From: Rhodospirillales bacterium
Lineage (GTDB): Bacteria > Pseudomonadota > Alphaproteobacteria > BOG-932 > Roseiterribacteraceae
Reading direction: 5' to 3'
Assembly: GCA_003165335.1 (NCBI GenBank)
Contig: PLTD01000021.1
Span: forward strand, 1-40,467
Length of the DNA stretch: 40,467 bases
Of this stretch, positions 5,902 to 39,546 are shown one piece after another. Numbering within the stretch: position 1 is the stretch's first letter; every line of letters begins with the position of its first letter. Position numbers and translations under genes: made by a program. A model generated the notes under the pieces. It was not told the origin of the DNA. It saw only the letters and a list, made by a program, of their open reading frames with translations, and ran no database searches.

Positions 5902-5939
5902 GCCCGAGTTCAGGGGCCGGACAGGGAACCGGCCATCTT

Positions 5940-14080: not shown

Positions 14081-14935
14081 ATGAAACCCTCCGCGCTTTT
14101 GCCTGACTCCGTCGCAGTGATCACCGGCGGGGCGTCCGGCATTGGGCTGGCCGCCGCCAAGCGGTTCGCCGCAAGAGGGTTCGCGGTCTGCATCGCCGAC
14201 CTGGGCGCCGATCGTCTTGCCAAGGCGGCGGCGGAGATTGCCGCAGTCTCACCGCATGGCGGCGGGCGCGTGATGACCGCAGAGACGGATGTCGCCAGCG
14301 TCGAGGCTCTGCGGCGCCTGGAACGATCGGTGCAGGAGCGGTTCGGCGGCACGGATATTCTGATGAATAATGCCGGCATCCAGCCGGGCAGCGGCCTGTT
14401 CGGGCCGGCGGAGAACTGGCAGCGGGTTCTCAGCGTCAATCTGATGGGCACGATTAACGGTACGCAGGCTTTCGTCCCCGGCATGATCGCCCGCGGGCGG
14501 CCCGGGCTGGTGATCAACACCGGATCGAAACAGGGCATCACCACGCCACCGGGCGACCCTGCCTATAATGTCGCCAAGGCAGGGCTGAAGGTCTTCACCG
14601 AGGCTCTGCAGCATGAGTTGCGCAACACGGCGGACTGCGAATTGTCAGCCCATCTGTTGATCCCCGGGTTCGTGTTCACGACGCTGACAGCCTATGGCCG
14701 CAGCGAAAAGCCCGCCGCCGCCTGGACGCCCGAACAGACCATCGATTTCATGCTGGAGCGGCTGGAGCAGGAGGATTTCTATATACTGTGTCCTGATAAC
14801 GACGTTTCGCGCGCTTTAGACGAACGCCGCATCGCCTGGGCGGCGGGCGACATCATCGAGAACCGCCCGCCGTTGTCACGCTGGCACCCGGACTGGAAGG
14901 ACAAGTTCGAGGCGTTTGCGAAAGATGCCGGTTAG
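14081..14935 (+). CDS. Short-chain dehydrogenase/reductase
   Basis: This classical SDR of 284 residues has the glycine motif TGGASGIG near residue 16, NNAGIQPGSG, and the catalytic YNVAK. The C-terminus is longer than usual, ending in a Trp-rich segment (LSRWHPDWKDKFEAF). It is cytosolic and NAD(P)-dependent. An AAGGA ribosome site precedes the ATG. It follows the PQQ dehydrogenase by 84 bases, beyond a strong hairpin, so co-transcription is possible but not certain. It could act on a product of the quinoprotein after uptake. The substrate is unknown. Confidence 0.86.
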   Translation: MKPSALLPDSVAVITGGASGIGLAAAKRFAARGFAVCIADLGADRLAKAAAEIAAVSPHGGGRVMTAETDVASVEALRRLERSVQERFGGTDILMNNAGIQPGSGLFGPAENWQRVLSVNLMGTINGTQAFVPGMIARGRPGLVINTGSKQGITTPPGDPAYNVAKAGLKVFTEALQHELRNTADCELSAHLLIPGFVFTTLTAYGRSEKPAAAWTPEQTIDFMLERLEQEDFYILCPDNDVSRALDERRIAWAAGDIIENRPPLSRWHPDWKDKFEAFAKDAG

Positions 14936-25407: not shown

Positions 25408-26148
25408 TCAGCGCCCGGCTATCGCCCGGACATCGGCCAAATAAGTACGGCCGACACGGACCTCGCGCCCATCTCGCATTTGCGCCATCCAGGTTCCCAT
25501 ACCGTCATGTTTAAAGCCGGCAATCCGGTCGCGCTGAGCGATTGTCGAGCGGTGAAGGCGAACGAAGTTCTGCGGGTCTAGACGGCGCTCCAACTCGCTG
25601 ATGGTCTGATGCAGAAGATAGGAGCGCAGCCCGACATGCAGCCGCATATAATCCCTCTCCGCCTCGATCAGATCGATGTCGCGCGCCGCTATCCGCACGA
25701 TTTCAGCCCGATGGGGCACCCAGAATTCCTGTGTGAATCTCGTGTCATCCGGCTTACCGGCGGTTACTTCTGGCGTCACCGCCAATTGGGTGCGGACCCT
25801 GGCAATCGCCCGTTCCAGCCGGGCCGGCTCGACCGGCTTCAACAGATAATCCACCGCAGAAACGTCGAAGGCTGCAACCGCAAACTGATCGAACGCGGTG
25901 ATGAAAATGATTGCCGGCCGCGGCGCGAACCCCTCAAGCGTCCGGGCTACGGCCATACCGTCAAGACCAGGCATCGCGATATCGAGCAGCAACAGGGTCG
26001 GCTTTAAAGCCTCGACCAATCTGAGCGCCGCTGCCCCGTCCGATGCCGCACCCACAAGATGAACGTCGGGGATACGGGCGCAGAGGATCTGCAGTCGCTC
26101 GATTGCCAGCGGCTCATCATCGACGATCAGCGTCTTGAACGGCGCCAT
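25408..26148 (-). CDS. LytTR-family response regulator
   Basis: This 246-residue two-component response regulator has a receiver domain (residues 1-120) with the acidic pair Asp10-Asp11, the phosphorylation site Asp56 (LLLLDIAMPGLDG) and the conserved Thr/Lys positions. A LytTR DNA-binding domain follows at about 140-245 (IVRIAARDIDLIEAERDYMR, SISELERRLD-like segment and FVRLHRSTIAQRDRI). It starts 5 bases after the kinase stop, so the pair is co-transcribed. It probably activates genes in the PQQ alcohol cluster next to it; target sites were not identified. Confidence 0.93.
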   Translation of the reverse strand: MAPFKTLIVDDEPLAIERLQILCARIPDVHLVGAASDGAAALRLVEALKPTLLLLDIAMPGLDGMAVARTLEGFAPRPAIIFITAFDQFAVAAFDVSAVDYLLKPVEPARLERAIARVRTQLAVTPEVTAGKPDDTRFTQEFWVPHRAEIVRIAARDIDLIEAERDYMRLHVGLRSYLLHQTISELERRLDPQNFVRLHRSTIAQRDRIAGFKHDGMGTWMAQMRDGREVRVGRTYLADVRAIAGR

Positions 26149-26153
26149 CCCGT

Positions 26154-27374
26154 TCAGGCCGCCCTAACAATGCAAATCTTGAGCGGCATCGACAATAACA
26201 CGCGGTAACCGCCGTCCGACCGCGGCCCATAGTGGCAACCGGCATCCGCGCCGAACCGCGCCAACAGCCGGTCGCAGACATTGCGAAGCCCGACGCCGCT
26301 GCCGGGCAGTTTCTCGGGAGGCGGTGGCCCGCCCACCTCAATCCTACCGTCGTCTTCGACGATCAAATTGAGACGACCATCTTCGCTGCGGGCACGGATA
26401 GTGACGGTAACCGGACGCATGCTGCGCGCCACACCGTATTTTATCGCGTTCTCGACGATCGGCTGCAGGATCATGCCTGGAACCGCCGCATTTTCCAGTT
26501 CGGACGGCACGTCGAGCACGACCTTCAGCCGCTCGGGGAACCTGATCTGTTCGATATCGAGATAGAGCCGCTGCATCCGGATTTCATCGATAAGCGCGAC
26601 ATCTTCAGTGGGATCCACGGTCAGGCTTGTGCGAAAGAAATTCGAAAGATTGAGAATCATCTGCTCCGCCTCGTCGCCCTGCTTGCGCATGACGAGGGTC
26701 GAGAGCGAGTTCAGCGTGTTGAAGAGGAAATGCGGATTGACCTGATAGCGCAACGCCCGCAGCTGCGCGCTCTGCGCCTCCGCCCTGTACATAGCGGCGT
26801 TGCGCTCGGCGAAACGCACCTTCCCGGCATAGGACATGGCGATATAGAGCACGGCCCAAGCGACAATGAAAAAATACCAGTTCAATGCCGAATCCGCGAT
26901 AACGTGCCAGGGAGCAAACTTGCTCTGGTCCATATCCTTGCGAAGTTCCTGAAGCTCGTAATCCGTCGGATGCACCACATAGAAAGCCCAGAAATTGACT
27001 GCGGCATAGGCAAACGACACCGGTAACGAGGCCAGAAAGGCGATCGACACCAGATTGCGCATCGGCTTGCCGTCCAGCCGGCGCAACAGCAGGCACAACA
27101 GCCCGGTCAGCAGCATACCGATCAAGCTGACTGCCAACCGCCGTGGCAGCATGCCCAGCTGCCCCGGCGCCTCGACTGCCGCCATTCGGATCGTATTCAT
27201 GACGAAATAGAAGGCCCAAAACCCGACGATCGACATGATGGCGGCACGCGGCGACAGGCATTCCCCAGCCTGTGCGGATTCGACAGATGCGGACGGGGTA
27301 GGCTCCGCGCCGGCATCTGATGGAGAAACCGGCGTCTCCAGAACGATATTAGCCATCGCCATTAGATACCGCAT
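26154..27374 (-). CDS. LytS/YehU-type sensor histidine kinase
   Basis: This 406-residue kinase has four transmembrane helices (about residues 45-65, 80-97, 108-132, 160-183). The His_kinase domain holds the phospho-accepting His215 in YQVNPHFLFNTLNSLS. A GHKL ATPase domain follows (NAIKYGV, VEDDGRIEVGG and GSGVGLRNVCDRLLARFG). The N-terminal ATG is uncertain; 27374, 27362 and 27356 are all possible. It precedes the response regulator and follows the ABC permease gene by about 77 bases. It is therefore the likely sensor for the alcohol-oxidation locus, perhaps through a membrane-embedded signal. Confidence 0.9.
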   Translation of the reverse strand: MRYLMAMANIVLETPVSPSDAGAEPTPSASVESAQAGECLSPRAAIMSIVGFWAFYFVMNTIRMAAVEAPGQLGMLPRRLAVSLIGMLLTGLLCLLLRRLDGKPMRNLVSIAFLASLPVSFAYAAVNFWAFYVVHPTDYELQELRKDMDQSKFAPWHVIADSALNWYFFIVAWAVLYIAMSYAGKVRFAERNAAMYRAEAQSAQLRALRYQVNPHFLFNTLNSLSTLVMRKQGDEAEQMILNLSNFFRTSLTVDPTEDVALIDEIRMQRLYLDIEQIRFPERLKVVLDVPSELENAAVPGMILQPIVENAIKYGVARSMRPVTVTIRARSEDGRLNLIVEDDGRIEVGGPPPPEKLPGSGVGLRNVCDRLLARFGADAGCHYGPRSDGGYRVLLSMPLKICIVRAA

Positions 27375-27451
27375 TCACCGGCGGAAAGGTTTAACAGACT
27401 TTGACCCCGGTCGAAACGAGCCGGCTGTTCGTCGAATTCACAAGCCGAGCA

Positions 27452-28261
27452 TTATTCCGGTGGACCACCGCGCTTGGCGATCAGGCCACGGCCGGGGTCG
27501 TAACCCCAAACGGCCAGGATCATGAAGAAAACGAAGAACCCGCCGACGACGGCTGCAGCCTGCGCATTGAACTTGCCATACATCGAGAAACGGATCAGCT
27601 CGACAGCATGGGTGAAGGGATTCACCGAATAGATGCGGTAGAGCCATAGGCTGGATTCTTTTACGCGCCAGAGCGGGTTCAGCGCCGAGGATGCAAAAAA
27701 CATCGGGAAGATGACGAAATTCATCACCCCGGCAAAATTCTCGAGCTGCTTGATGAAAGAAGACAGGACCAAACCCAGAGCCCCGAGCATCAACCCCGCC
27801 AGGATCATCGCCGGCAACATTTCGATATAGCCGAGCGGCGGCGGCTCAACGTCCCAGATTAGCGCGATCGCCAGAAACATATAGACCTGGACGATGGAAA
27901 CGGCGACGCCGGCCATCAGCTTCGACAGCAGCAGAAACCAGCGCGGAAAAGGGCTGATCATAAGCGTTTTCATACTGCCCATCTCGCGGTCATAGACCAT
28001 CGACAACGAACTTTGCATCCCATTGAAAAGCTGAATCATCGCAACCAAGCCGGGCGCGATGTAGACCTCATAGGGGATATAGGTGTCGTAGGGCTCGATG
28101 ATCGACAGGCCCAGCGTAAAGCGGAAGCCGGCCGCGAAGATGCCGAGCCAGACCAATGGGCGAACCAGAGCCGATATGAACCGACTTCGCTGATTTAACC
28201 AGCGCAGCGCCTCGCGGTTCAGAATACCGAGAAAGGCGCGCAGATATTGAGCCGCCCTCAT
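27452..28261 (-). CDS. ABC-2-type permease (PedC-like) linked to PQQ alcohol oxidation
   Basis: This 269-residue integral membrane protein of the ABC-2 permease type has about six helices. Typical regions are LVRPLVWLGIFAAGFRF, SLSMVYDREMGSMKTLM and VIFPMFFASSALNPLWRV. It resembles the PedC permeases found beside PQQ alcohol dehydrogenases in pseudomonads and relatives. The start ATG at 28261 overlaps the ATPase stop as ATGA. With the ATPase it would form an export-type ABC transporter, perhaps moving a product or signal related to alcohol oxidation. The real substrate is unknown. Confidence 0.85.
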   Translation of the reverse strand: MRAAQYLRAFLGILNREALRWLNQRSRFISALVRPLVWLGIFAAGFRFTLGLSIIEPYDTYIPYEVYIAPGLVAMIQLFNGMQSSLSMVYDREMGSMKTLMISPFPRWFLLLSKLMAGVAVSIVQVYMFLAIALIWDVEPPPLGYIEMLPAMILAGLMLGALGLVLSSFIKQLENFAGVMNFVIFPMFFASSALNPLWRVKESSLWLYRIYSVNPFTHAVELIRFSMYGKFNAQAAAVVGGFFVFFMILAVWGYDPGRGLIAKRGGPPE

Positions 28262-29019
28262 GGTTTACCCTTCCCGCCCGGTGCGCCCTGAGTGAGCTTG
28301 TCGAACGCGCCGCGCAAATTGGACTCGCCCGAAGACTGAATGACAGCGGTCGCTGTGCCCGTCGCGAGGACTTTTCCTTTATGCAAAACGACGACCTTGG
28401 AATTGTCGTCCGCCTCGTCAATCAGGTGGGTTGCCCACAAAACCGCCATACCGCGCTCTGCACAAAGGCCGCGCACATGGTCCAGCAAGAACTGTCGGCT
28501 ATCAATATCCAGGCCAACAGTCGGCTCATCGAGAAGCAACAAATGCGGGTTGTGAATCAACGCACGCGCCAGTTCGACACGTCGCCGTTGACCGCCGGAC
28601 AATTGTCTCGCCCTGTCCCGCCGTCGATCGTTCAACCCGATCCGTTCCAACTCGGCAGTGATGCGTGGACCGGCGACCGATTTGGCCATGCCGTGCAGGG
28701 CGGCATGGTAGAACATGTTCTGCTCGACCGTCAGGTCGAGATCGAGTGTCGACTGCTGAAAAACCGCCCCGATCTTGGCCAGCGCCTTAAGATATTTCGT
28801 CCGCAAGTCGGCGCCGTAGACCGAAATCGACCCGTAACGGCTATGATAAAGCCCTGTCACCAGCGCGAACAGTGTCGTCTTGCCTGCCCCGTTGAGCCCA
28901 AGCAGTACGGTAAAGTCACCCGCCGCGATATCGAAGCTGACATCGTCGAGCGCCTTGCGGGCATCAAAACTGTGGCTGACATTACGCACCGCGAGGGCCA
29001 GTGAGGCATCATCCGTCAT
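28258..29019 (-). CDS. ABC-transporter ATP-binding protein (PedB-like)
   Basis: This 253-residue ATPase has Walker A GLNGAGKTT (residues 41-49), Q-loop FQQS (near 87), signature LSGGQRRRVELARAL (140-154), Walker B LLLLDEPTVGLD (near 160-171) and the H-loop His198. It matches ABC-2-type ATPases, and the neighbourhood points to the PedB group tied to PQQ dehydrogenases. It overlaps its neighbours by ATGA at both ends, so translation is coupled with the upstream propeller gene and the permease. Cytosolic face of the inner membrane. Confidence 0.93.
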   Translation of the reverse strand: MTDDASLALAVRNVSHSFDARKALDDVSFDIAAGDFTVLLGLNGAGKTTLFALVTGLYHSRYGSISVYGADLRTKYLKALAKIGAVFQQSTLDLDLTVEQNMFYHAALHGMAKSVAGPRITAELERIGLNDRRRDRARQLSGGQRRRVELARALIHNPHLLLLDEPTVGLDIDSRQFLLDHVRGLCAERGMAVLWATHLIDEADDNSKVVVLHKGKVLATGTATAVIQSSGESNLRGAFDKLTQGAPGGKGKP

Positions 29020-29987
29020 GGCGCAACCGCCACGCCCCAGGGCGAACGGCCGACCGGTACAGACTTGGTCGCCTTTTCATCGGCTACATCGATGACGGTA
29101 ATGTCGTTACTGACACCATTGGCGGTAAACAACCGCTTCTGGTCGGGAGAGAAGGCCATGTTCCATACACGCTGGCCGACCAATATATATTTCTGCACTT
29201 CGAAGCTTTTCGTGTCGATGACAGCAACCCTATTGGCGGGCCCCAAAGCCACAAAGGCGACTTTCCCGTCTTTCGTGATTTTGATGTCGACCGGCTGAGC
29301 CTGAGCCGAGGTCAAGCCCGGTATGTCGAACTTGATCTTCTTGACGATCGAATGAGTCGCGGCATCGATCACCGCGACCGCGCCGCCGACTTCTGATGAA
29401 ACCCATACCTGCCGACCGTCGGGCGACCAGGTGGCAACCCTGGGGCGACTGTCGACCAGCACATTGGCAACGACTTTGTTCGTCGCGGTATCAATGAAAT
29501 GGGCCATGCTGGTGGTCTCGGACGTATCAACGACCGTCTTGCCATCCGGGCTCATTGCCATGCCCTCTGGCTCGATCCCCACCGGCGTCTCGGCAACAAT
29601 CTTGGCCGCCGCAATGTCGAGCACGGAAACCTTGTTGTCGTTTTCGTTGGCGATATAGAGCAGCTTGCCATCAGGGCTGGTATCGAACCGTTCCGGGTCA
29701 GGACCGCTTGGGAGGGTCCGCACGATTTTCAGCGTCGTGAGGTCGAGCACTTCGATACGGTCGGAATCGCTGGCACAAATATAGAGGCTCTTGCCATCTA
29801 CCGAGAGCAGTATGGCGCGCGGTCTCTGTCCGACCTTGATCGTATTGGTGATGGCGAGCGACTGGCCGTCCAGGACCGTGATTGTATTGTCCTTTTCGTT
29901 GGAGACGAATATGCGGTCGGCCAGGGCTGGCTCGGCGAAGATGACGCCGGTGACAAGGGCCGCGGCGAAGATTATTCTCGGCGTCAT
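29016..29987 (-). CDS. YVTN-type beta-propeller protein of the PQQ-alcohol system
   Basis: This 323-residue exported protein has a signal peptide ending near residue 22 (EPALADR) and a seven-bladed YVTN propeller. The repeated unit is a short segment ending in VxVID or VLD (for example NTITVLDGQS, DRIEVLDLTT, NKVSVLDIAA, GAVAVIDAAT, NRVAVIDTKS, NDITVIDVAD). This type accompanies PQQ alcohol-oxidation clusters as a PedA-like component. The ATG at 29987 overlaps the upstream gene stop (TGA at 29986-29984) as ATGA. The exact role (scaffold, binding, assembly) is unknown. Confidence 0.9.
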   Translation of the reverse strand: MTPRIIFAAALVTGVIFAEPALADRIFVSNEKDNTITVLDGQSLAITNTIKVGQRPRAILLSVDGKSLYICASDSDRIEVLDLTTLKIVRTLPSGPDPERFDTSPDGKLLYIANENDNKVSVLDIAAAKIVAETPVGIEPEGMAMSPDGKTVVDTSETTSMAHFIDTATNKVVANVLVDSRPRVATWSPDGRQVWVSSEVGGAVAVIDAATHSIVKKIKFDIPGLTSAQAQPVDIKITKDGKVAFVALGPANRVAVIDTKSFEVQKYILVGQRVWNMAFSPDQKRLFTANGVSNDITVIDVADEKATKSVPVGRSPWGVAVAP

Positions 29988-31237
29988 GGCATATGGCACT
30001 TCGTTTCGGGGCGGTCGACACCAAGCGTGTCGAGTTCTGAGAATTGATGTAGGAAGCCCGGCTGCGGCGACACCGACACCAGCGAACGTGCATCGGCAAG
30101 CAAGACTGGCTGACGCAATTGTCCATCCCACTCTCGGAATGTCAATTTTGTTCCCTTGAATCCGGCGAGGTCGAAATCTTTCCCCCGCATAAAATCTCCG
30201 ATTTTTGCCGGGTCAACAGTTGAACCGCGCGTCGCCGCCTCGCCCACCGCGCGAACGGCCAACCAAGCGCCATAATCATTGTCGGTCATCCAACGATTGG
30301 CCTGCTTCTCAAACCTGCTTTGCAGTTGCGTCGCACCCCATTGTTCGAACGGCCGCGCCCATGCGGACGGCACGAGCCCTTGAGTGCCGGCGATCGGCCT
30401 GGATAAAGTGGTGCGATAGGCCAGATCGTCCCCGAAATTACCGGCTTCATCAGCAACCACGAGAAGATCGTAGTCCTTAACGTCCTGGGTCACGCGTGCG
30501 ACTTCGGCTTCGACAGCATAATGACCGGTATCGGTACGCCGGGACCCTGGGTCGAAGGTCCAGGGAATTTCCTGGACGATTTTAATACGAAATTTATGAG
30601 CAGAGTTGCGGATTGCGTCGGCATAATCTTTGTCGGCGGGATCTGCGCCAATCACCAGAGCGATGCTGCTCCACTTCTTGATCATCATATATTGCATCAG
30701 AGCGTCGGCCAGCATCGCTCGACTTGGCAAAGTGTGAAGCACATTGCGGCGACAACTCTCCGCCCGAAGCGCATCGTCATGCGTCGTAGCGTCCAGAATT
30801 GTAACGGCTTTGGCTTCGGGCAGGTCGGCTACCTGGAGCAACACTGGCGCGGGCAGATCGGCAACGAACAGCTTATCGCCGGCCGCAATGCGCCTCTTAA
30901 ACGCGTCGACCACGCCAGCGGCATCGGGAGCAATCTCTTCGTTCAATCGAAAATTCTGACCGAGAAACTGACCGGTCGTTTGATTATCGCTGAGAGCCAG
31001 TCTCGCTCCTTGCAGCCCCTCATCCTGCGGCGGTTGATCCAGATAGAATGCCGGCAAGACCCGTTCAACTTTCAGGCCGATATAGGTAACGTCGATCGGC
31101 GCAGAGATTGCTGCTGTTTGCGCCAATGCGGGACCGCTACAGGCCAAAAGCCCAATAACCCAGGCAACGGCGACCCAGTCTCGACATAACGTGGCGGAAA
31201 TCACCCGAATTGAATTCGAATCGCGTCTTCGCCTCAT
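29984..31237 (-). CDS. Periplasmic binding protein of the PQQ-alcohol ABC system
   Basis: This 417-residue exported protein has a long basic N-terminus followed by a signal helix (WVAVAWVIGLLACSGPALAQ, cleavage near residue 39). The binding fold is of the branched-chain-amino-acid (Leu/Ile/Val) receptor type, with two alpha/beta lobes. It resembles the binding proteins attached to PQQ alcohol-dehydrogenase gene sets. The start at 31237 (ATG) has GGGAGG a few bases upstream and is preferred to an adjacent GTG. It heads the chain of four ATGA-coupled genes in the left arm. The ligand is unknown. Confidence 0.85.
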   Translation of the reverse strand: MRRRRDSNSIRVISATLCRDWVAVAWVIGLLACSGPALAQTAAISAPIDVTYIGLKVERVLPAFYLDQPPQDEGLQGARLALSDNQTTGQFLGQNFRLNEEIAPDAAGVVDAFKRRIAAGDKLFVADLPAPVLLQVADLPEAKAVTILDATTHDDALRAESCRRNVLHTLPSRAMLADALMQYMMIKKWSSIALVIGADPADKDYADAIRNSAHKFRIKIVQEIPWTFDPGSRRTDTGHYAVEAEVARVTQDVKDYDLLVVADEAGNFGDDLAYRTTLSRPIAGTQGLVPSAWARPFEQWGATQLQSRFEKQANRWMTDNDYGAWLAVRAVGEAATRGSTVDPAKIGDFMRGKDFDLAGFKGTKLTFREWDGQLRQPVLLADARSLVSVSPQPGFLHQFSELDTLGVDRPETKCHMP

Positions 31238-31300
31238 CACATCCTCCCATACGCAATACGCCGGCCAGCGTCATTGCCCGCATGCCGACGTCGGAGATAT

Positions 31301-31330
31301 TTGCTCGCGCTAGCGACGATTCGCTATAAT
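31301..31330 (+). promoter_or_regulatory. Promoter for the right arm, nearly leaderless
   Basis: TTGCTC (31301-31306), an 18-base spacer and a perfect TATAAT (31325-31330). The likely start point lies about four bases before the ATG at 31341, so the first gene would have a very short or no leader, and no Shine-Dalgarno is visible. It lies in the 103-base divergent gap between the two arms. Confidence 0.6.
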
Positions 31331-31340
31331 AAACGCACCT

Positions 31341-32315
31341 ATGCCGTTTTCCCGTCGAACTGTTTTATCAACCGTCCTGACCGGCGCACTGTCGAGTGCG
31401 CTCGCCGGACCTCTCGCGCGAGCTGCAGACGCGACCGTCCGCATAGGAATATTGCCGTTCGGCACTGCCGCTTGGGAACTTGATGTCATTCGACGCAACG
31501 GCTTCGACAAGGCGCAGAATGTGGCGATTGAGGTGATCGAGTTCGAATCGTCACCAGCCACGCAAGCAGCGTTGCAGGCTGGGCGGGTGGACATGATCGT
31601 CCTCGATTGGCTTTGGGTCGTTGGCCGAAGGGCGGAAGGCGCAGATTGGACCTTCGCCCCGGTTTCCAGCGCAGCTGGCGGATTAGTAGCGCGACCGGGA
31701 CGTACAAAAATCATCGCGGATCTCCCCGGCACGAAACTGGGCATTGTCGGCCCACTGGACAAAAATTGGCTGATCCTCCAGGCCTATGCCAAGCACAAGT
31801 TCGACATCGATCTCGATCAGACAATCGAGAAAGTTGTCGCGCCGCCGCCCGAACTGCTTCGCAAACTGAGCGCGGGACAAGTCGAAGCAATGGTGACGTT
31901 CTGGCCCTTCGCCGCCAAAGCCGAAGCTCAAGGCATGCAGCACGTCATCAGCGTTCAAGAAGCTGTACGCGAGTTAGGCGTCGTGACCAGCGTGCCCTTT
32001 TCCGGATTCGTCTTCTCCAGAGGATGGGCAGTGAACAACCGATCATTGGTCGACGGATTTCTGGCGGCGGGCGCCCAGGCCCGCGCCTTGATGGAGGCTT
32101 CCGATGACGAGTGGCTTCGCTTGAAACCGATTCTGAATGCTGAAGACGAAGTTGAATTTAAGCAGCTTAAGAATGCCTACCGGCAAGGCATTATCGGGCA
32201 GCCCAGCAACATCCAGCGCGCCGCGATGGCGCAGCTTTACCGCATTCTGGCAGAGATCGGCGGGTTTGGAATGGTCGGCGCCACCACGGAGATTCCGCCG
32301 GGTACATTCTGGTAG
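31341..32315 (+). CDS. NitT/TauT-type substrate-binding protein
   Basis: This 324-residue exported protein has a twin-arginine-like signal sequence (SRRTVLSTVLTGALSSALAG, then ARAADA). It folds as an SsuA/NitT/TauT-type binding protein: strand-start TVRIGILPFGTA, LQAGRVDMIVLDWLWVVGRR, the PGTKLGIVGPLDKNWLIL turn and FSRGWAVNNR. Such proteins deliver a ligand to an ABC importer, yet no matching importer permease or ATPase is adjacent. It may be a sensor or chaperone for alcohol substrates. It opens the right arm of the locus and is followed by PQQ dehydrogenase genes. Confidence 0.82.
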   Translation: MPFSRRTVLSTVLTGALSSALAGPLARAADATVRIGILPFGTAAWELDVIRRNGFDKAQNVAIEVIEFESSPATQAALQAGRVDMIVLDWLWVVGRRAEGADWTFAPVSSAAGGLVARPGRTKIIADLPGTKLGIVGPLDKNWLILQAYAKHKFDIDLDQTIEKVVAPPPELLRKLSAGQVEAMVTFWPFAAKAEAQGMQHVISVQEAVRELGVVTSVPFSGFVFSRGWAVNNRSLVDGFLAAGAQARALMEASDDEWLRLKPILNAEDEVEFKQLKNAYRQGIIGQPSNIQRAAMAQLYRILAEIGGFGMVGATTEIPPGTFW

Positions 32316-32325
32316 CACATAAACA

Positions 32326-32341
32326 TTATAATGCATTATAA
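32326..32341. promoter_or_regulatory. 16-bp perfect palindrome before PQQ dehydrogenase
   Basis: TTATAATGCATTATAA is a perfect palindrome in an AT-rich gap 10 bases after the binding-protein stop and 85 before the dehydrogenase ATG. It contains TATAAT on each strand, so it may act as a -10 element, a regulator site, or both. Confidence 0.5.
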
Positions 32342-32425
32342 AGCGCCGCATCGAGCAGACATATGCTGCTTGCCTCGACGACGGAAGACTATAAGAGCAG
32401 GGCTTGGAATTCGAAGGGACTGGGG

Positions 32426-34117
32426 ATGATCCGATACAGACAGGCAAAGAGCCTCTTCGCCGCCGTGACGTTAGGCGCAACATTTGCGATTTGCCTTTTC
32501 AATTCGGCGCAAAATGGGGCGTCAGCGGCAGAATCGTCGTCGAACTGGCCTTCTTTCTTCGGCAACGACCAAGCTTGGAGCTATAGTCCGCTCGATCAAA
32601 TCAACCGTGACAACGTTAAGCGTCTATCGGTGGCCTGGGCTTTTTCTACTGGCGAAAAAGGGCTTGGCGCGACGCCATTGGTCGTCGATGGAACCATGTA
32701 TCTGGTGGCGCCGAGCAATCGCCTCTTCGCTCTCGACGCTGCAACCGGCCGCCAGATTTGGAGCTATTCGCGCGAGGCACCTCAGGGACAACTTGGTGGC
32801 CTCGGCGGTGCTACCGGACTTGCAATGGGGTTCGGCCTGGTTTTTGAAGGAACACTCGACAACCACATGGTTGCGATCGACGCAAAGACGGGGCACCAGG
32901 TCTGGGACGTGCAGATCGAGGATTACCGCCAGTGCAAATGTACTACGTCTTTCACGCCGATCCTGGCAGGCGATAAAGTTGTGGTCGGCGCACGCGGCGA
33001 CATCGCGCATCGCGCCTATATTACCGCCTATGACGCAAAAACGGGGAAACAGGCTTGGCGATTCTGGGCCATCCCAGGCAAAGGCGAACCCGGCAACGAC
33101 ACCTGGAAGGACGATCAGTGGAAATTGGGCGGCGGTTCGACTTGGCTGGGCGGCTCATACGATCCGAAGCTTAATCTCATCTATTGGGGCGTGGGCAACC
33201 CGCAGCCGATGCTGAATGCCAAGGCCCGCCCGGGCGACAATCTTTACACCGATTCGGTTGTCGCGCTGGACGCCAATACCGGCAAAATTAAATGGTACTT
33301 CCAAGAAAATCCTAACGATTCTCTCGATTACGACGCGACGCCCGAGCCCATACTCATCGATATCGAGCGCAACGGTAAGATGGAACCGCTGCTGCTGCAT
33401 CCCAATAAGTCGGGTTACACGTACCTTCTGAATCGCGAAACCGGGAAATTTGTCGCCGGCTGGTCGCATGTCGATCTGCTGAACTGGTCGAAGGGATTGG
33501 ACAAGGACGGCAAACCGATTGATCCCGTACAGACGGAAATCGGTATCGATAAGCTGATCTGTCCGTCGCTTTACGGCTCACGAGCCGGCAATCACTCCAC
33601 CTACAGCCCGAAAACCGGCTGGTGGTATAATACTTCTTTCGAGGTCTGCGCCCAGACAAAGGCAATACCGCCGATGGCGGCCAAAGAGGGCGACATGTTC
33701 ATGGGTGGATATATCAGACCTGTGCGTTCCACCAGCACCAAACCGTTTATCGCGGCCTTCGATCCGCTCACGGGTGCGCGGAAATGGACTCACGAGACCG
33801 AAATATTGACCACGTCGGCGCTTACCGCGACGGCCGGAGACCTGATTTTCGGCGGCGACCCGTTCGGGATGGCCTGGGCGTTGGACGCGAGAACAGGCAA
33901 GACCTTGTGGAGTTTTTCCACCGGCGGCGGCATATCGAGCTCTCCAATCAGCTATGGCGTGAGCGGCAAGCAATATGTCGCGATCGCGACCGGCTTGACG
34001 GGCGCCCCCGGGACTTTGGTCGCGCCGCTTTGGCCGGAATTCAAAGACCGCGTACCGCCAGTCGGCTCTACCTTGTTCGTCTTCGCGCTTCCGGAGGCAG
34101 CTGCCAATGCGCAATAA
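32426..34117 (+). CDS. PQQ-dependent alcohol dehydrogenase
   Basis: This periplasmic quinoprotein of 563 residues has an N-terminal signal segment (residues 7-35) and an eight-bladed PQQ propeller. Visible active-site elements are GVGNP (Asn258, metal ligand), GDNLYTDS and the LDYD motif (Asp301, Asp303). The extra Asp303 is a feature of lanthanide-type alcohol dehydrogenases (XoxF/PedH pattern), but sequence alone does not prove it. The usual vicinal Cys pair in the blade-1 loop is replaced by GGLGGATGLAMG. The ATG at 32426 has a GGG-rich ribosome site. It overlaps the cytochrome c gene by 11 bases and passes electrons to it. The substrate is probably a primary or secondary alcohol. Confidence 0.9.
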   Translation: MIRYRQAKSLFAAVTLGATFAICLFNSAQNGASAAESSSNWPSFFGNDQAWSYSPLDQINRDNVKRLSVAWAFSTGEKGLGATPLVVDGTMYLVAPSNRLFALDAATGRQIWSYSREAPQGQLGGLGGATGLAMGFGLVFEGTLDNHMVAIDAKTGHQVWDVQIEDYRQCKCTTSFTPILAGDKVVVGARGDIAHRAYITAYDAKTGKQAWRFWAIPGKGEPGNDTWKDDQWKLGGGSTWLGGSYDPKLNLIYWGVGNPQPMLNAKARPGDNLYTDSVVALDANTGKIKWYFQENPNDSLDYDATPEPILIDIERNGKMEPLLLHPNKSGYTYLLNRETGKFVAGWSHVDLLNWSKGLDKDGKPIDPVQTEIGIDKLICPSLYGSRAGNHSTYSPKTGWWYNTSFEVCAQTKAIPPMAAKEGDMFMGGYIRPVRSTSTKPFIAAFDPLTGARKWTHETEILTTSALTATAGDLIFGGDPFGMAWALDARTGKTLWSFSTGGGISSSPISYGVSGKQYVAIATGLTGAPGTLVAPLWPEFKDRVPPVGSTLFVFALPEAAANAQ

Positions 34118-34952
34118 TGCTTTTGCCATTGCGCTGATCTGTGCAGCGGCTACCACCTCGACAGGCAATGCAGCGCCGTCAGCAGCAGCGCTGGAAGCAG
34201 GTGGAAATCTTTTCGCCATTACATGCAGCAGTTCCTTCTGTCACGGCGACGCGGGGATTGGCGCGCGCGGACCTTCACTGCGCAACCGTAATTTTCCGCC
34301 GGATTTCGTCCGCAACACGATGCTGAATGGCCGATCCGGCACGCCGATGCCAGCCTTCAAGGATGCGCTGACCCCGGTTGAAGTAGCGATGATCGTCAAT
34401 TATGTGATGTCGCTATCACCGGGAAACCACCAGGAAGATGGGGGCACGGCAGCGGCGGCCACATCCGCGCCGATTGATTTGAGCAATCAGGCGATACGAG
34501 GTTCAGATTTGTTTTTCGGCGCCGTTCACCCTGCCGGATGCGCTCTCTGCCACAGCTACGGCGGCAAAGGCGGACCGATAGGTCCCGATCTTTCTGCGGT
34601 GGCCGCAAAAACCCCGAGCGCACTCTATCGGAGCATCACGCAGCCTGCGCCGTCGAACGACGGTTATGCTGCTGTAACCGTGACCACCAAAGACGGCAGC
34701 AAGTTTGCCGGTCTCAAACACGATCAAACAGATCAGCAAGTCGGACTTTTCGACGTCTCCACGACGCCGCCGGTTTTGCGCAGCTTTTACTTCGCCGACG
34801 GCATCAAAACTGAGGCCTACGCCGGCGCAGCGCTCTATCGACATGATTTGAGCGGTTACTCTAAATCAGATGTCACGGATATCATTGCGTTCCTGAAATC
34901 CGCCACTGGCGAAGGGAAAGCCGTGACCCCGCAAGAACTCGGTTTGCAATAG
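34107..34952 (+). CDS. Diheme periplasmic cytochrome c with CX4CH and CXXCH
   Basis: This 281-residue exported protein (signal peptide residues 1-22) has two heme sites. The first reads C40-SSSF-C45-H46, with four residues between the cysteines rather than two; the second is ordinary CALCH (145-149). A GTPMPAF segment (axial Met81) follows the first heme. The second heme lies in a domain of the putative heme-binding type (GKGGPIGPDLSAVAAKTP and VTVTTKDGSKFAGL). It overlaps the dehydrogenase gene by 11 bases and is the likely electron acceptor for PQQH2. Confidence 0.85.
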   Translation: MRNNAFAIALICAAATTSTGNAAPSAAALEAGGNLFAITCSSSFCHGDAGIGARGPSLRNRNFPPDFVRNTMLNGRSGTPMPAFKDALTPVEVAMIVNYVMSLSPGNHQEDGGTAAAATSAPIDLSNQAIRGSDLFFGAVHPAGCALCHSYGGKGGPIGPDLSAVAAKTPSALYRSITQPAPSNDGYAAVTVTTKDGSKFAGLKHDQTDQQVGLFDVSTTPPVLRSFYFADGIKTEAYAGAALYRHDLSGYSKSDVTDIIAFLKSATGEGKAVTPQELGLQ

Positions 34953-34961
34953 GACTAGACG

Positions 34962-35600
34962 ATGAGCGAGAGCACCCAGAATCGGAGCGACCTCTTAGCC
35001 CGGATCGATAGGCTGGAGTCGATCGATGAAATTCGCCAACTGGCAGCCAAATATTCGTTGGCGCTGGACATGCGCGATTCCGATGCCTGGGTCGGATTGT
35101 TTCCCGAGGACGTGAAGGTCAGCGAGAGCGAGAGCGGCAGAGCGGCGCTCAAGCGTTGGTTCGACGACACGATGCGGCAGCAGTTTAATGGTACTTCCCA
35201 CCACATCGGCGGCCATATCATCGAGTTCATCGATCCGGATAATGCACAGGGTGTGCTTTATTCCAAGAACGAGCACGAAACCGGCCCCGAATGGGTCATC
35301 ATGCAAATGATGTATTTCGACCGCTATCAGCGGATTGGCGGGCGTTGGTATTTCCGCCGCCGTTTACCACTTTATTGGTACGCCACAGACCTCAATAAGC
35401 CGCCGATTGGCGACCGCAAAATGCGCTGGCCCGGCAGGGAGCCCTATGAGGGCGGATTTCACGATCTTTTCCCGTCATGGCGCGAGTTCTGGGCGCAAGG
35501 CGCGCCGGTCCATTCGCCGGTTGCCGATCCGGCGCCGTTGGACAAATTCATCGACACAATGCGGCGCGGACAAAAAGCACCGTCGGTTAGGGTCCGCTGA
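34962..35600 (+). CDS. SnoaL-like (NTF2-fold) protein
   Basis: This 212-residue cytosolic protein has a SnoaL-like/NTF2-type fold. A starting helix (SIDEIRQLAAKYSLALDMRD) with the Asp of FPEDV is followed by a strand pattern ending in GGRWYFRRRLPLYWYATDL. The family includes small-molecule isomerases, dehydratases and aldol-type catalysts acting on alicyclic compounds. It starts 10 bases after the cytochrome stop and touches the next gene by one base (TGATG), so it belongs to the same operon. The reaction is unknown. Confidence 0.78.
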   Translation: MSESTQNRSDLLARIDRLESIDEIRQLAAKYSLALDMRDSDAWVGLFPEDVKVSESESGRAALKRWFDDTMRQQFNGTSHHIGGHIIEFIDPDNAQGVLYSKNEHETGPEWVIMQMMYFDRYQRIGGRWYFRRRLPLYWYATDLNKPPIGDRKMRWPGREPYEGGFHDLFPSWREFWAQGAPVHSPVADPAPLDKFIDTMRRGQKAPSVRVR

Positions 35601-36664
35601 TGACCAACCTGTTCGACCCGGTTCGGCTGGGCGATATCGATCTGGCCAACCGTGTCGTTATGGCGCCAATGACCCGCAGTCGGGCAGGCGCAGGAGACGC
35701 CCCGACGGATCTTAATGTCGAATATTACCGCCAGAGAGCTTCAGCCGGTCTGATCGTCAGTGAGGGCACACAACCGAGCGCAGACGGCAAAGGATATTGT
35801 CGTACACCCGGGATCCACAGTGTCGCGCAGATCGCCGGTTGGCGAAAGGTAACCGAAGCTGTCCATGGTGAAGGCGGCAAGATCGTCCTGCAAATCATGC
35901 ACTGCGGCCGTATCGGCGCCAAACTGAACAAAGACCCCGACGCAGAGACGATTGCGCCATCGGCAATTCGCGCAGCGGGACAGATGTTTACCGATGCCGC
36001 AGGCATGGTTGACTTCGATGAGCCCCGCGCGCTGGAAACTGACGAAGTTCCGGGCGTAATTGCCGAATTCGGTCAAGCGACGGCGAATGCCTTGGAGGCC
36101 GGGTTCGATGGCGTCGAATTGCACGCAGCGAGCGGCTACCTGCCGATGCAGTTTCTTTCCACAGGAACCAACAAGCGCACGGACCGTTATGGCGGGTCCG
36201 CTGAGAATCGGATTCGTGCCGTAGTCGAAATGCTCGAAGCAATGGCGAAGGTTGCCGGTCCGGGTCGTGTCGGCATCCGCATCTGTCCGGGTGTCCTGTT
36301 CAACGATATTCACGACGATGACCCTAGGGAAACCTATAGTGCCTTGCTGAAGACGATCGACCCGATGAAGTTGGCCTATTTGCATCTGATCCTGCTGCAG
36401 ACGCCCCAGGTCGACGGATTTGCGGTTGCGCAGGCCAATTATACCGGCCCGATGATCCTGAACGACAGCATCACCTTGGAGCGCGCTAACCAATTGATCG
36501 ATACCGGTGTCGCTGCGGCCGTATCATTTGCCCGTCATTTCCTGGCAAACCCGGACTTGGTGCATCGATTGAGATCGGGCGCCGAACTGGCTCGTTTCGA
36601 CCGAAAAACCCTCTATACGCCAGGCTCGGCCGGCTATACCGACTATCCGATGATTTATAAATAG
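35600..36664 (+). CDS. Old Yellow Enzyme-family alkene reductase
   Basis: This 354-residue FMN enzyme of the OYE/NemA group reduces activated C=C bonds with NAD(P)H. Family marks are PMTRSRAGAGDAPTD, HGEGGKIVLQIMHCGRIG, GFDGVELHAASGYL (usual HxxN or HxxH catalytic pair: His175 is present but position 178 is Ser), TGTNKRTDRYGGSAENR, and Tyr180. The His-Ser pair may change substrate preference. The start codon overlaps the SnoaL-like stop as TGATG. It would act on an enone or enal made earlier in the pathway. Confidence 0.9.
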   Translation: MTNLFDPVRLGDIDLANRVVMAPMTRSRAGAGDAPTDLNVEYYRQRASAGLIVSEGTQPSADGKGYCRTPGIHSVAQIAGWRKVTEAVHGEGGKIVLQIMHCGRIGAKLNKDPDAETIAPSAIRAAGQMFTDAAGMVDFDEPRALETDEVPGVIAEFGQATANALEAGFDGVELHAASGYLPMQFLSTGTNKRTDRYGGSAENRIRAVVEMLEAMAKVAGPGRVGIRICPGVLFNDIHDDDPRETYSALLKTIDPMKLAYLHLILLQTPQVDGFAVAQANYTGPMILNDSITLERANQLIDTGVAAAVSFARHFLANPDLVHRLRSGAELARFDRKTLYTPGSAGYTDYPMIYK

Positions 36665-36763
36665 ACCGTAGTGTGGAGTTTCGGCAGACAAACAACCGGG
36701 CCGGCTATCGCTGGATAACCCCGAGACAATAAACATTTCGACGACAAATGAAGGATAGGAAGC

Positions 36764-37537
36764 ATGGGCGATAGGATGAAAGGGAAGGTCGCGTTCATCA
36801 CCGGCGGTAGCGACGGGATTGGACGGGCAACAGGGATCAGACTGGCTGAGGAAGGCGCGCATGTGATCATTTGCGCCCGCAGACCGGAGAATCTTGCCGA
36901 TGCCGAAGCAGCGATCAAGGCTGTAGGCGGTTCCGTTGAGGCTCTGCAGTTGGATGTCGGAGACACGGATGCCTATGCCAAAGCTATAAACGACGCAGCC
37001 AAACGTCACGGCCGGTTGGACGCCTTGGTCAATAACGCCATGTCGGTCCACTATTCCTCGATCCTCGATACCTCGCTCGAAGACTGGCGCGCCGATTTTC
37101 TGGTCAATGCCGATGCGGTGTTCGTCGGCACCAAGACCGCTTTAAAAATCATGTACGGACAGCGGAGCGGTTCGATCGTCAACATATCGTCGACCAATGG
37201 TCTATTGGCCATGATCGGGATGAGCAGTTATTCGGCGTCGAAGGCAGCTTTGATTCAATTCAGCGCTGTCGCCGCAATGGAAGCGGCGGAGCATAATGTC
37301 CGAGTCAACGTGATCGCCCCCGGCCAAATCTTGACCCCCGCCGTAGAAAATTTCGCCAAATACGATCCGGACCGCGCGTCCAAGGCGACTGCTGCGATCC
37401 CGATGAAACGCGGCGGACAGCCTAAAGAATTGGCGGATGCCGTGCTTTTTTTAGTATCCGACGAATCGACTTTCGTGACCGGCGTATGCCTGCCCGTCGA
37501 CGGCGGCAAATCCGTCCAGATGAATATTCCAAGCTAA
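36764..37537 (+). CDS. Short-chain dehydrogenase/reductase
   Basis: This classical SDR of 257 residues has glycine motif TGGSDGIG (residues 13-20), NNAM instead of the usual NNAG (90-93), and the catalytic Ser143, Tyr156 and Lys160 (YSASK). The short spacing and co-direction put it in the same operon as the OYE and the next SDR. It is cytosolic and NAD(P)-dependent, probably converting an alcohol and a ketone in the pathway. AGGAAGC precedes the ATG. Confidence 0.9.
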   Translation: MGDRMKGKVAFITGGSDGIGRATGIRLAEEGAHVIICARRPENLADAEAAIKAVGGSVEALQLDVGDTDAYAKAINDAAKRHGRLDALVNNAMSVHYSSILDTSLEDWRADFLVNADAVFVGTKTALKIMYGQRSGSIVNISSTNGLLAMIGMSSYSASKAALIQFSAVAAMEAAEHNVRVNVIAPGQILTPAVENFAKYDPDRASKATAAIPMKRGGQPKELADAVLFLVSDESTFVTGVCLPVDGGKSVQMNIPS

Positions 37538-37550
37538 GGGGACAGAGATC

Positions 37551-38375
37551 ATGCTTCTGAAAGACAAGCGCGCGGTCGTAACCGGCGCGGCGCAGGGAAT
37601 CGGACGAGCAATTGCATTGCGTCTGGCCGCCGAAGGCGCGCGCGTCGCCGTATTAGATATCCACGAAGCCGCTGCAAAGGCAGTATGGGCAGACAGCGAA
37701 CCAGGAAGACACCTGGGATTCGCCTGCGATATCGCGGACAGCAAAGCAGTTGACGCGGTGTTCGCCAAAATCAGTGAAGCGTTCGGTGGTGTGGATATTC
37801 TGGTCAACAATGCCGGCATCGGGCGCGGTCCGAACGACGGCAGCGATCAGATGTACGCCGGAATCGCCGAACGCAGCGGGCAACTTGCCCGCGGAGAGAA
37901 GCCGACAGCCCACCCAGACCAGATGATCCATATGTCAGATGAAGGTTGGGCACGCGTATTGGGCGTCAATCTGACCGGCCAGTTCTATTGTGCGCGCGCG
38001 GCTGTACGGCTGATGGTTGCGGAAAATGTCGTCGGCAATATCGTCAATATCGCCTCCACATCAGCGGCTTCAGGTGAAGGCCCTCTGCACTATGTAACCA
38101 GCAAGGCCGCCGTCGTCGGCTTTACTAGAGGGTTGGCCCGGGAACTTTCGACTCGCGGAATTCGGGTTAACGCGGTTCACCCTGGCGCGACCAATACACC
38201 GATCATGGGCAATCTGCCCGACGAAATGGTCAAGGCGATGGAGGCCGCCATCCCCTTGGGAAGGATGGCGCGCCCCGACGAAGTTGCTGCAGCAGTCGCC
38301 TTTCTGGCGAGCGATCAAGCGAGTTACGCAACCGGAAGCGTGTTGACCGTGAACGGTGGACAATACTTCGCCTGA
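37551..38375 (+). CDS. Short-chain dehydrogenase/reductase with insertion
   Basis: This SDR of 274 residues has TGAAQGIG (residues 11-18), NNAGIGRG (87-94), catalytic Ser169, Tyr181 and Lys185 (YVTSK) and TDTPIMG-type C-terminal segment (TPIMGNLPDE). About 30 extra residues (about 95-127, RSGQLARGEKPTAHPDQ) lie between NNAG and the MSDEGWARVLGVN helix. Such insertions occur in some alicyclic-alcohol SDRs. It starts 13 bases after the previous stop with a GGGGACAGAG ribosome site, so it is in the operon. The substrate is likely a ring alcohol or a diol. Confidence 0.88.
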   Translation: MLLKDKRAVVTGAAQGIGRAIALRLAAEGARVAVLDIHEAAAKAVWADSEPGRHLGFACDIADSKAVDAVFAKISEAFGGVDILVNNAGIGRGPNDGSDQMYAGIAERSGQLARGEKPTAHPDQMIHMSDEGWARVLGVNLTGQFYCARAAVRLMVAENVVGNIVNIASTSAASGEGPLHYVTSKAAVVGFTRGLARELSTRGIRVNAVHPGATNTPIMGNLPDEMVKAMEAAIPLGRMARPDEVAAAVAFLASDQASYATGSVLTVNGGQYFA

Positions 38376-38385
38376 GGTAACTAGG

Positions 38386-39546
38386 ATGAGGGATGTTTTC
38401 GACGCCGAACCCTTCCGCGTCGCGGTACCCGACGCGGTGCTGGACGACCTGAAAGACCGGCTGGCGCGAACGCGCTGGCCGATTGAGGCAAATGCGCCCC
38501 CTTGGTTTTACGGCACCGACCTCACCTACCTCAAAGCGGTCGTCGCGCACTGGCACGACAACTACGACTGGCGGAAATGGGAAGCGAAGCTAAACCGCTT
38601 TCCCCAATACAAGGCGACTGTCGGCGGTCGGCAGTTGCACTTCATTCTCGAGCGAGGATCCGGTGACAATCCCCTGCCCCTTATACTGACTCACGGCTGG
38701 CCCGGATCGGTTGTCGAATTCCTCGATGTGATTGAACCTTTAGCCCACCCGGAACGGTTCGGCGGCGACGCAAAAGACGCCTTTACGGTCATCGTTCCCA
38801 GCCTGCCGGGTTATGGATTTTCGGACCCGCCCGACGCGCCGATAACGCCGCGAGATATCGGCGCACTATGGCGAGAACTGATGGTCGATGTTCTGGGTTG
38901 CGAGCGCTATGTCGCTCAAGGCGGCGACTGGGGCGCATGCATCACCTCATGGCTGGCATTCGACCACCCCGAGCATCTGGCAGCCATCCACCTGAATATG
39001 CTGGGCCTTTTGCCATTTCGCGGCGAAGGGGTTCCTTCGATGACCGAGGAGGAGATGGACTGGCTGAAAGCTGCCCAGGAGAAATCACTCCTGGAGTCGG
39101 CCTATCAGCAGATTCAAGGCACAAAGCCTCAGACCCTAGCCTACGGCCTTACCGATTCACCGGCCGGTCTTGCAGGCTGGATTTTGGAAAAATTTCACGG
39201 TTGGACGATTCCCGGTTCGCCCGAAGCACCGCCCTTCGATACGGATGATTTGCTGACCAACGTCATGCTCTATTGGCTGAACGGCATCAACGCTTCGACT
39301 TGGCTGTATGTTGCACTGGTCAATGGCAATGCGTTTTTCCTGAATCCCGGCGAGCGCATCGGGATACCCACCGGCCTCTTCCTTTTCCCGAACGACTTGC
39401 TTCCTCCGCCGCCCGAAAGTTGGTCCCGTCGTGTCTATAACGTTACCCACCGGCGCGTCAGTGCCGACGGCGGACATTTCGCTGCGTTCGAAAAGGGGAA
39501 TTTGCTCGTTGACGATATGCGACGATTCTTCCGATCTTATCGGTAA
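38386..39546 (+). CDS. Epoxide hydrolase (alpha/beta fold, EHN type)
   Basis: This 386-residue alpha/beta hydrolase has an N-terminal epoxide-hydrolase segment (FRVAVPDAVLDDLKDRLART). The oxyanion loop HGWPGS lies at residues 103-108, the nucleophile Asp181 in GGDWGACIT and the catalytic His364 in ADGGHFAAFE. The enzyme would open an epoxide to a diol. The ATG at 38386 follows GAGGTAACTAGG, partly over the previous stop; the longer GTG start at 38356 is rejected. It is the last gene of the right arm. An epoxide intermediate or detoxification of an epoxidised substrate is implied. Confidence 0.92.
   Translation: MRDVFDAEPFRVAVPDAVLDDLKDRLARTRWPIEANAPPWFYGTDLTYLKAVVAHWHDNYDWRKWEAKLNRFPQYKATVGGRQLHFILERGSGDNPLPLILTHGWPGSVVEFLDVIEPLAHPERFGGDAKDAFTVIVPSLPGYGFSDPPDAPITPRDIGALWRELMVDVLGCERYVAQGGDWGACITSWLAFDHPEHLAAIHLNMLGLLPFRGEGVPSMTEEEMDWLKAAQEKSLLESAYQQIQGTKPQTLAYGLTDSPAGLAGWILEKFHGWTIPGSPEAPPFDTDDLLTNVMLYWLNGINASTWLYVALVNGNAFFLNPGERIGIPTGLFLFPNDLLPPPPESWSRRVYNVTHRRVSADGGHFAAFEKGNLLVDDMRRFFRSYR

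Follow-up and report, generated by a model that had tools for sequence, protein, structure and literature searches.

A conserved alphaproteobacterial locus that joins a candidate lanthanide-type PQQ alcohol dehydrogenase system to a putative 12-hydroxysteroid module

Two described systems, one for lanthanide-dependent growth and one for the breakdown of bile-acid-type steroids, are among those closest to a gene locus found at positions 25,408 to 39,546 of a 40,467-nucleotide stretch of DNA from a Rhodospirillales bacterium (assembly GCA_003165335.1, contig PLTD01000021.1; the whole stretch is referred to as the window). In Pseudomonas putida the ABC proteins PedA1A2BC are required for lanthanide-dependent growth at low La3+ (PMC6839425; PMC12997753) and, according to the former paper, have no part in carbon substrate uptake. 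In the steroid system, SteC removes the C12-beta hydroxyl group and SteD reduces the double bond; SteC is a suggested SnoaL/NTF2 member, about 28% identical to BaiE and with an AlphaFold model resembling it, while the SteD model, eight helices in a ring, was likened overall to the flavin oxidoreductase ScdK, with which its alignment failed (PMC13101464). A ring of eight helices fits the barrel of an Old Yellow Enzyme (OYE). In Comamonas testosteroni CNB-2, SteA, SteB, ORF7 (Hsh1) and ORF6 (Sor1) are encoded on consecutive locus tags. ORF6 and ORF7, homologous to sor1 and hsh1, were tied to the degradation of cholate rather than testosterone, with ORF6 induced by both; sor1 and hsh1 are needed for steroids bearing a C12 hydroxyl group (PMC4810484).

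The 14 genes of the locus were placed and assigned to families as first described from the sequence alone (gene calls with Pfam/NCBIfam scan). They form a left arm on the minus strand, comprising a Ped-like ABC set, a kinase and a regulator, and a right arm on the plus strand, which contains a pyrroloquinoline quinone (PQQ) dehydrogenase, a diheme cytochrome c, a SnoaL-family protein, an OYE, two short-chain dehydrogenases/reductases (SDR1 and SDR2) and an epoxide hydrolase. With a probability of roughly 0.6, we read the locus as steroid-catabolic, combining removal of a 12-hydroxyl group with a candidate lanthanide-PQQ oxidation in the periplasm and with lanthanide import. In the proposed sequence of events, the left arm would bring in lanthanide, as judged from P. 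putida, and the quinoprotein together with the diheme cytochrome would act in the periplasm on a 12-hydroxylated steroid, oxidising a side-chain or ring hydroxyl, for instance that of a bile alcohol. In the cytosol, SDR2 and then SDR1 (SteA/SteB-like) would invert the 12-alpha-hydroxyl group of a bile-acid-type steroid via the 12-ketone, the SnoaL protein (SteC/Hsh1-like) would eliminate the 12-beta-hydroxyl group as water, and the OYE (SteD/Sor1-like) would reduce the double bond left behind. The LytS/LytTR pair probably regulates the locus. The sequence-only reading had also seen a pathway here, and its periplasmic PQQ system and cytosolic enzymes, probably acting on an alicyclic ring, are retained; its order of steps, however, omitted the SnoaL dehydration that would supply the OYE with its double bond.

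The steroid assignment is drawn from comparison with other genomes. Judged by gene family, by position and by a recurrent linkage with genes of steroid ring cleavage, the SnoaL-OYE-SDR-SDR series appears to match steC-steD-steB-steA (PMC8399759, PMC4810484, PMC13101464), and the specificity of this module for the 12-position would follow from that match. The terpene alcohol previously proposed as substrate was set aside on account of the repeated steroid linkage; terpenoid gene sets were not searched for. The search covered 385 genomes of the class, a draw that was not exhaustive, as G680 of the same class surfaced only in the phylum draw of 398 genomes. At 66% identity or more, the SnoaL protein was present in four genomes of the class draw, namely three of the window organism's own genus (g1) and G152 of another family. 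A profile search of the phylum draw returned six further genomes besides the organism's own (G477, G460, G683, G701 and G680 at 66-68%; G533 at about 38-39%). In total, SnoaL recurs in 12 genomes outside the genus, which represent six genera: six genomes belong to genus g146, and G460 and G533 share another. These 12 were tabulated at E ≤ 1e-15 and 60% coverage over stretches of unequal length (13 to 71 kb). The OYE was found in 11 of them (not in G680, whose stretch holds no close OYE), and 10, covering five of the six genera (not G460 or G533), have an HsaC/TesB relative about 1 to 30 kb away from SnoaL. Nine of the 12 carry SDR1 at 39% identity or more together with SDR2 at 45% or more; the contigs end in G391 and G389, and the values in G533 are 34-35%.

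The arrangement of these clusters links the four cytosolic genes repeatedly to steroid genes of the 9,10-seco type. All six g146 genomes have SnoaL-OYE in one stretch with HsaC, HsaD and HsaA relatives, and four have the SDR1-SDR2 pair in the same cluster, the contig ending first in G389 and G391. In G152, SnoaL lies next to OYE, and roughly 12 kb from them SDR1 and SDR2 make up another neighbouring pair; genes between and beyond the two pairs have the Pfam domains that would be expected for KstD, KshA, HsaA, HsaB, HsaC, HsaD, acyl-CoA dehydrogenases (ACADs), an ScdK/IpdC-type NMO and a thiolase. HsaA and HsaD were the best NCBIfam models for two G152 proteins, below cut-off. For the HsaC relative, the HsaC model was a close second to biphenyl-diol dioxygenase, likewise below cut-off, and for the flavin reductase HsaB ranked third, below cut-off, behind a best model for hydroxyphenylacetate hydroxylase reductase. 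The KstD relative passed a general FAD-protein model only, and KshA had no NCBIfam match at E ≤ 1e-30. The closest solved structures were 2zi8 (HsaC of Mycobacterium tuberculosis) for the HsaC relative, and the 3-ketosteroid delta4-5alpha-dehydrogenase 4at0. In G477, G683, G701 and G680, HsaC and an scd-type block (ECH, NMO, ECH, ACAD, thiolase) occur within about 70 kb. The order in G477 (SDR2, SDR1, SnoaL, OYE, HsaC, a 1.8-kb gap, ECH, NMO, ECH, two ACADs, thiolase) matches the steA-tesR cluster of C. testosteroni as given in the published legend, from which the place of tesB is absent. SDR2-SDR1-SnoaL-OYE is found also in G701 and G460, the latter with one extra SDR-like frame, and the window SDRs are called SteB- and SteA-like because this order in the three genomes parallels steA-B-C-D; in G683 the set is dispersed over about 33 kb. 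For contrast, the stretches (8-18 kb) around SnoaL relatives of 30-35% identity in G272, G177, G197 and G341 contained neither an OYE (0/4) nor Hsa genes (0/4) at the E-value and coverage given above; at a weaker threshold, G341 gave an HsaA-like match of 22%.

Fold and residues of the cytosolic enzymes were compared with solved structures (pdb library). The SnoaL protein has a BaiE-like fold: in a Foldseek search with its model (mean pLDDT 71; residues 165-212 below 50), BaiE occupied ranks 2, 3, 4 and 6, and the profile match to BaiE (4l8p; E = 8e-6) came second to a putative scytalone dehydratase. Residues Y31, D36 and H80 are invariant across 14 aligned sequences. Y31 and D36 align with a Tyr and an Asp of BaiE, and the BaiE His aligns with H81, not H80; these three BaiE residues are presumably its catalytic ones. 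All 12 genomes with an OYE of at least 50% identity have HxxS in that protein, and two aligned solved OYEs have HxxN instead.

The quinoprotein of the right arm is a candidate lanthanide-PQQ alcohol dehydrogenase, as its residues suggest, and a steroid would be its substrate in the proposed scheme. D-x-D (D322, the catalytic Asp, and D324, the second Asp) is kept in all three sequences of the genus; such a motif is assumed to indicate lanthanide use, with verification needed for unknown enzymes, and of the closest solved structures, 6zcv and 6zcw, the latter is PedH (PMC11996626). The protein falls below the cut-off of the methanol/ethanol-type model TIGR03075 (467 vs 480 bits). A signal-like sequence was read by eye, and the true start may lie near 32426. 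In the metal site of the three genus sequences Asn is retained and Glu is replaced by Asp; in an alignment of 47 rows, one of them a duplicate of the window sequence, Glu was present in 27/27 rows from other genera, and the genus's own paralogues carry Asp in 14 of 16 cases. The three sequences also have a CKC motif in common. No match above 42% identity was found outside the genus in the 385 class genomes (at most three candidates scored each, E ≤ 1e-80), and by sequence the enzyme is placed in a separate clade. Loss of the Cys-Cys pair was dropped as a mark of this clade, as several other rows are without it too. The diheme cytochrome has one unusual haem motif, CX4CH (CSSSFCH), and one ordinary CXXCH, both kept in 3/3 sequences. 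Elsewhere in the window a second PQQ dehydrogenase of 677 aa (11963-13996, plus strand) carries Asp at the position of the metal-site Glu, and its catalytic Asp is replaced by Glu (IWExD), an exchange seen in several PQQ dehydrogenase paralogues of the same genome; it is followed by an SDR-like frame (14081-14935). PQQ-family matches occur on 19 contigs of this genome; inspection by eye for company between PQQ dehydrogenases and KshA/KstD relatives across these contigs gave no association that we put forward.

All four ABC proteins of the left arm exceed the curated cut-offs of the set associated with PQQ alcohol dehydrogenases (TIGR03861, TIGR03864, TIGR03866 and TIGR03863). By analogy with P. 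putida the arm is of the PedA1A2BC type and would import lanthanide. The ABC set had been placed within alcohol handling; a role as alcohol importer or exporter was set aside, since the P. putida counterpart serves the uptake of lanthanide and not of a carbon substrate (PMC6839425).

Conservation of the locus within its small genus was confirmed, in G002 as far as a short contig extends. The order and the family of the window organism comprise the same five genomes, three of them in g1 (the organism's own, G001 and G002) and two in another genus (G003 and G004). Both arms are present in the same order in G001, split over contigs C315 and C97 with both contig ends inside SnoaL, and a 5.8-kb contig of G002 carries, in syntenic order, a partial ATPase followed by the propeller, the binding protein, the PQQ dehydrogenase, the cytochrome and SnoaL. 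G003 and G004 gave no PQQ dehydrogenase match at E ≤ 1e-60, nor, at the thresholds applied, any match to KshA, KstD or HsaC. Of the NMT1-like binding protein, only a remnant is left in G001 and G002 shows no match, so it is not counted as core. Its relatives in G134 (43%) and G361 (37%) sit 1 and 6 kb from PQQ dehydrogenases (L104 7036-7917; L096 419-1297), so that this pairing recurs despite the decay in G001.

Features of the locus are listed in Table 1. The window makes up 40 kb of a 51-kb contig in an assembly of 5.2 Mb (265 contigs, 95.6% complete). As described earlier, the right-arm genes are packed with short or overlapping joints, which from the first (47 bases) to the last (-20) measure 47, -11, 9, -1, 99, 13 and -20 bases (minus denoting overlap). 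A small RNA of the mmgR/suhB family was found at 5837-5907 of the window (plus strand; RF00519, 55 bits).

Table 1. Genes of the locus, with window coordinates and the family matches behind each assignment
Feature	Position	Strand	Evidence
LytTR-type response regulator	25408..26148	-	PF00072 + PF04397; 78% in G001
LytS/BtsS-type membrane histidine kinase	26154..27374	-	PF06580 + PF02518; 71% in G001
PedC-like ABC permease, lanthanide-importer type	27452..28261	-	TIGR03861 398 bits, cut-off 241; 95% in G001
PedB-like ABC ATPase	28258..29019	-	TIGR03864 335 bits, cut-off 302
PedA2-like periplasmic beta-propeller	29016..29999	-	TIGR03866 489 bits, cut-off 287
PedA1-like substrate-binding protein	29984..31240	-	TIGR03863 478 bits, cut-off 414
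NMT1/SsuA-like periplasmic binding protein, accessory	31341..32315	+	PF13379
PQQ alcohol dehydrogenase, lanthanide-type D-x-D (D322, D324)	32363..34117	+	PF01011 275 bits; TIGR03075 467 bits
Diheme cytochrome c, likely electron acceptor	34107..34952	+	PF13442, PF00034
SnoaL_4/NTF2 dehydratase, SteC/Hsh1-like	34962..35600	+	PF13577
OYE, HxxS active-site signature, SteD/Sor1-like alkene reductase, 354 aa	35600..36664	+	PF00724
SDR1, SteB-like by position (12-ketosteroid -> 12-beta-hydroxy)	36764..37537	+	PF13561
SDR2, SteA-like by position (12-alpha-hydroxy -> 12-keto)	37551..38375	+	PF13561
EHN epoxide hydrolase, microsomal-type	38356..39546	+	PF06441 + PF00561

Further steroid genes were sought in the rest of the organism's genome and in G001. 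The former encodes KshA relatives of 58% (C41) and 55% (C156), the second lying beside Amido2 (62%) and AMPb1 (39%) in the order seen in G152, as well as a KstD relative of 47% (C116), an HsaC relative of 48% (C132) and further HsaA/HsaC/HsaD relatives on C95 and C67. Given these KshA, KstD and HsaC relatives, steroid degradation by the organism is plausible, the module standing apart from those genes. Ten Rieske oxygenase genes of the genome have a KshA_C domain over cut-off.

The epoxide hydrolase has 5f4z and 4i19 as solved relatives, of which the Asp of the GGD motif and the His of the GGHF motif are kept. A contig of G001 (C146) carries a paralogue of it (64%) and a thiolase that shares 68% identity with the one in the G152 steroid cluster; HsaA and KshA relatives, ACADs and a further PQQ dehydrogenase lie on the same contig. 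As a steroid marker the hydrolase was rejected, for relatives of 51-62% occur in seven other genomes without module genes at module-level identity; around these, an OYE and an SDR at 34% were seen in G196 and weak ECH, ACAD, NMO or SDR matches in the others. A TonB-dependent receptor of 1111 aa that includes an OmpA domain is encoded at 40132-43467 of the contig, in convergent orientation to the epoxide hydrolase gene, and G001 has a frame of 1100 aa at the same place; steroid or metal uptake is a possible function.

Several results weigh against a steroid-catabolic locus with its own lanthanide supply. In the stretches examined next to the locus, in the organism's own genome and in G001, no steroid ring-cleavage gene was found, the relatives being on other contigs. 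The PQQ dehydrogenase, cytochrome, epoxide hydrolase and Ped genes (propeller, binding protein, permease) were detected in 0/12 of the examined stretches from module genomes outside the genus, which leaves adjacency in one genus as the main link between the arms. Half of those 12 genomes belong to a single genus, and three others are incomplete cases: G460 has no HsaC in about 70 kb, G680 no close OYE, and G533 only the distant SnoaL. The steroid assignment of the G152 cluster is itself one by domain and order, its HsaA-D relatives all being below cut-off, and the proposed SteC/SteD orthology draws on family, order and linkage. In the fold search with SnoaL the putative scytalone dehydratase ranked first, and LinA reached scores similar to those of BaiE. 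The quinoprotein carries Asp at the position of the metal-site Glu of PedH, so that its metal use could differ. Finally, no PqqE over cut-off was found in the organism's assembly, which may reflect an assembly gap; G001 has one (562 bits; C287), about 3 kb from a D-x-D PQQ dehydrogenase.

A rival idea is that the two halves are chance or historical neighbours, with the left arm, PQQ dehydrogenase and cytochrome forming an ordinary lanthanide/PQQ system for small alcohols and the steroid module inserted downstream. The absence of linked halves from the examined stretches of every other module genome speaks for such a history, as does the action of PedH on short-chain alcohols and aldehydes (PMC11996626), and the nearest solved relatives of the PQQ dehydrogenase are ethanol dehydrogenases. 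We regard it nevertheless as unlikely, though it deserves serious attention, because the cytochrome-SnoaL junction and the gene order are preserved in G001 and G002, because the dehydrogenase, at most 42% identical to anything outside the genus, stands in a separate clade with Asp for a Glu kept in all 27 other-genus rows, and because a second contig of G001 joins the epoxide hydrolase paralogue, the 68% thiolase and the HsaA and KshA relatives to a PQQ dehydrogenase.

Two further explanations concern the substrate of the module. The presence of BaiE among the best solved relatives of SnoaL would suit a 7-hydroxysteroid dehydratase of the Hsh2/BaiE kind in place of a 12-hydroxysteroid enzyme; this appears improbable, since the linked OYE and SDR pair in steA-B-C-D order fit SteABCD, and the diene formed by Hsh2, as far as the source describes it, goes unreduced into further degradation, which would leave the OYE unneeded. 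Catabolism of a terpenoid or other alicyclic alcohol such as geraniol or carveol, or of a trichothecene-like epoxide alcohol, would account for the epoxide hydrolase. Deoxynivalenol is an epoxide-bearing terpenoid. PQQ dehydrogenases can oxidise bulky compounds such as this one (PMC10301637), but five other genera repeat the linkage of the four-gene set with steroid genes, and we give such a substrate very little credence.

Returning to the steroid reading, each half of the locus is known, and the joint of a lanthanide-type PQQ arm with a 12-hydroxysteroid module is unreported in the literature searched. The search found no work treating both steroid degradation and lanthanide; broader searches gave, among the matches listed, no title or abstract opening that couples the two, and a search on bile alcohols yielded nothing direct among the matches listed. 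The combined arrangement of quinoprotein, cytochrome and epoxide hydrolase with the 12-hydroxysteroid module was seen only in g1, in agreement with the sequence-only reading, according to which Ped loci are not known to combine these enzymes, a comparison that covers the module-genome stretches. More tentatively, the quinoprotein may be a lanthanide enzyme dedicated to a steroid of the bile-acid or bile-alcohol class, with its own importer and in one operon with 12-hydroxyl removal; this rare-earth-dependent entry into steroid breakdown is possible, though we would not favour it at present. If the reading is true, rare-earth metal use would extend from small alcohols to steroid breakdown, a little-sampled alphaproteobacterial lineage would join the predicted 12-hydroxysteroid degraders, and a catabolic module would sit in an operon for metal-dependent periplasmic oxidation instead of its usual cluster. 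The locus also argues against taking Ped-type ABC genes as alcohol transporters, and the substrate prediction is specific enough for a few enzyme assays.

Compared with known systems, the locus resembles the ped cluster of P. putida KT2440 (PedA1A2BC, PedH, PedS2/R2) in its permease, ATPase, YVTN propeller and binding protein, its D-x-D quinoprotein and its two-component pair; it differs in having LytS/LytTR-type regulators, a diheme cytochrome instead of PedF and steroid-type enzymes downstream. The bai operon of 7-dehydroxylating Clostridium likewise combines a SnoaL_4 dehydratase (BaiE) with OYE-family proteins (BaiCD, BaiH). That operon also includes the SDR BaiA and operates in anaerobes. 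It acts, however, at C7 on a CoA-linked substrate, and BaiCD is a long Fe-S flavoenzyme whereas the OYE of the window is short and has HxxS. With the steABCD or hsh1-sor1-steA-steB module of C. testosteroni and Pseudomonas stutzeri Chol1, which is tied to degradation of bile-acid-type steroids, the locus shares a linked SnoaL/NTF2 dehydratase, alkene reductase and two dehydrogenases; in the window, however, these stand in the order C-D-B-A, with no ring-cleavage genes found alongside, preceded by the PQQ dehydrogenase and cytochrome and followed by the epoxide hydrolase.

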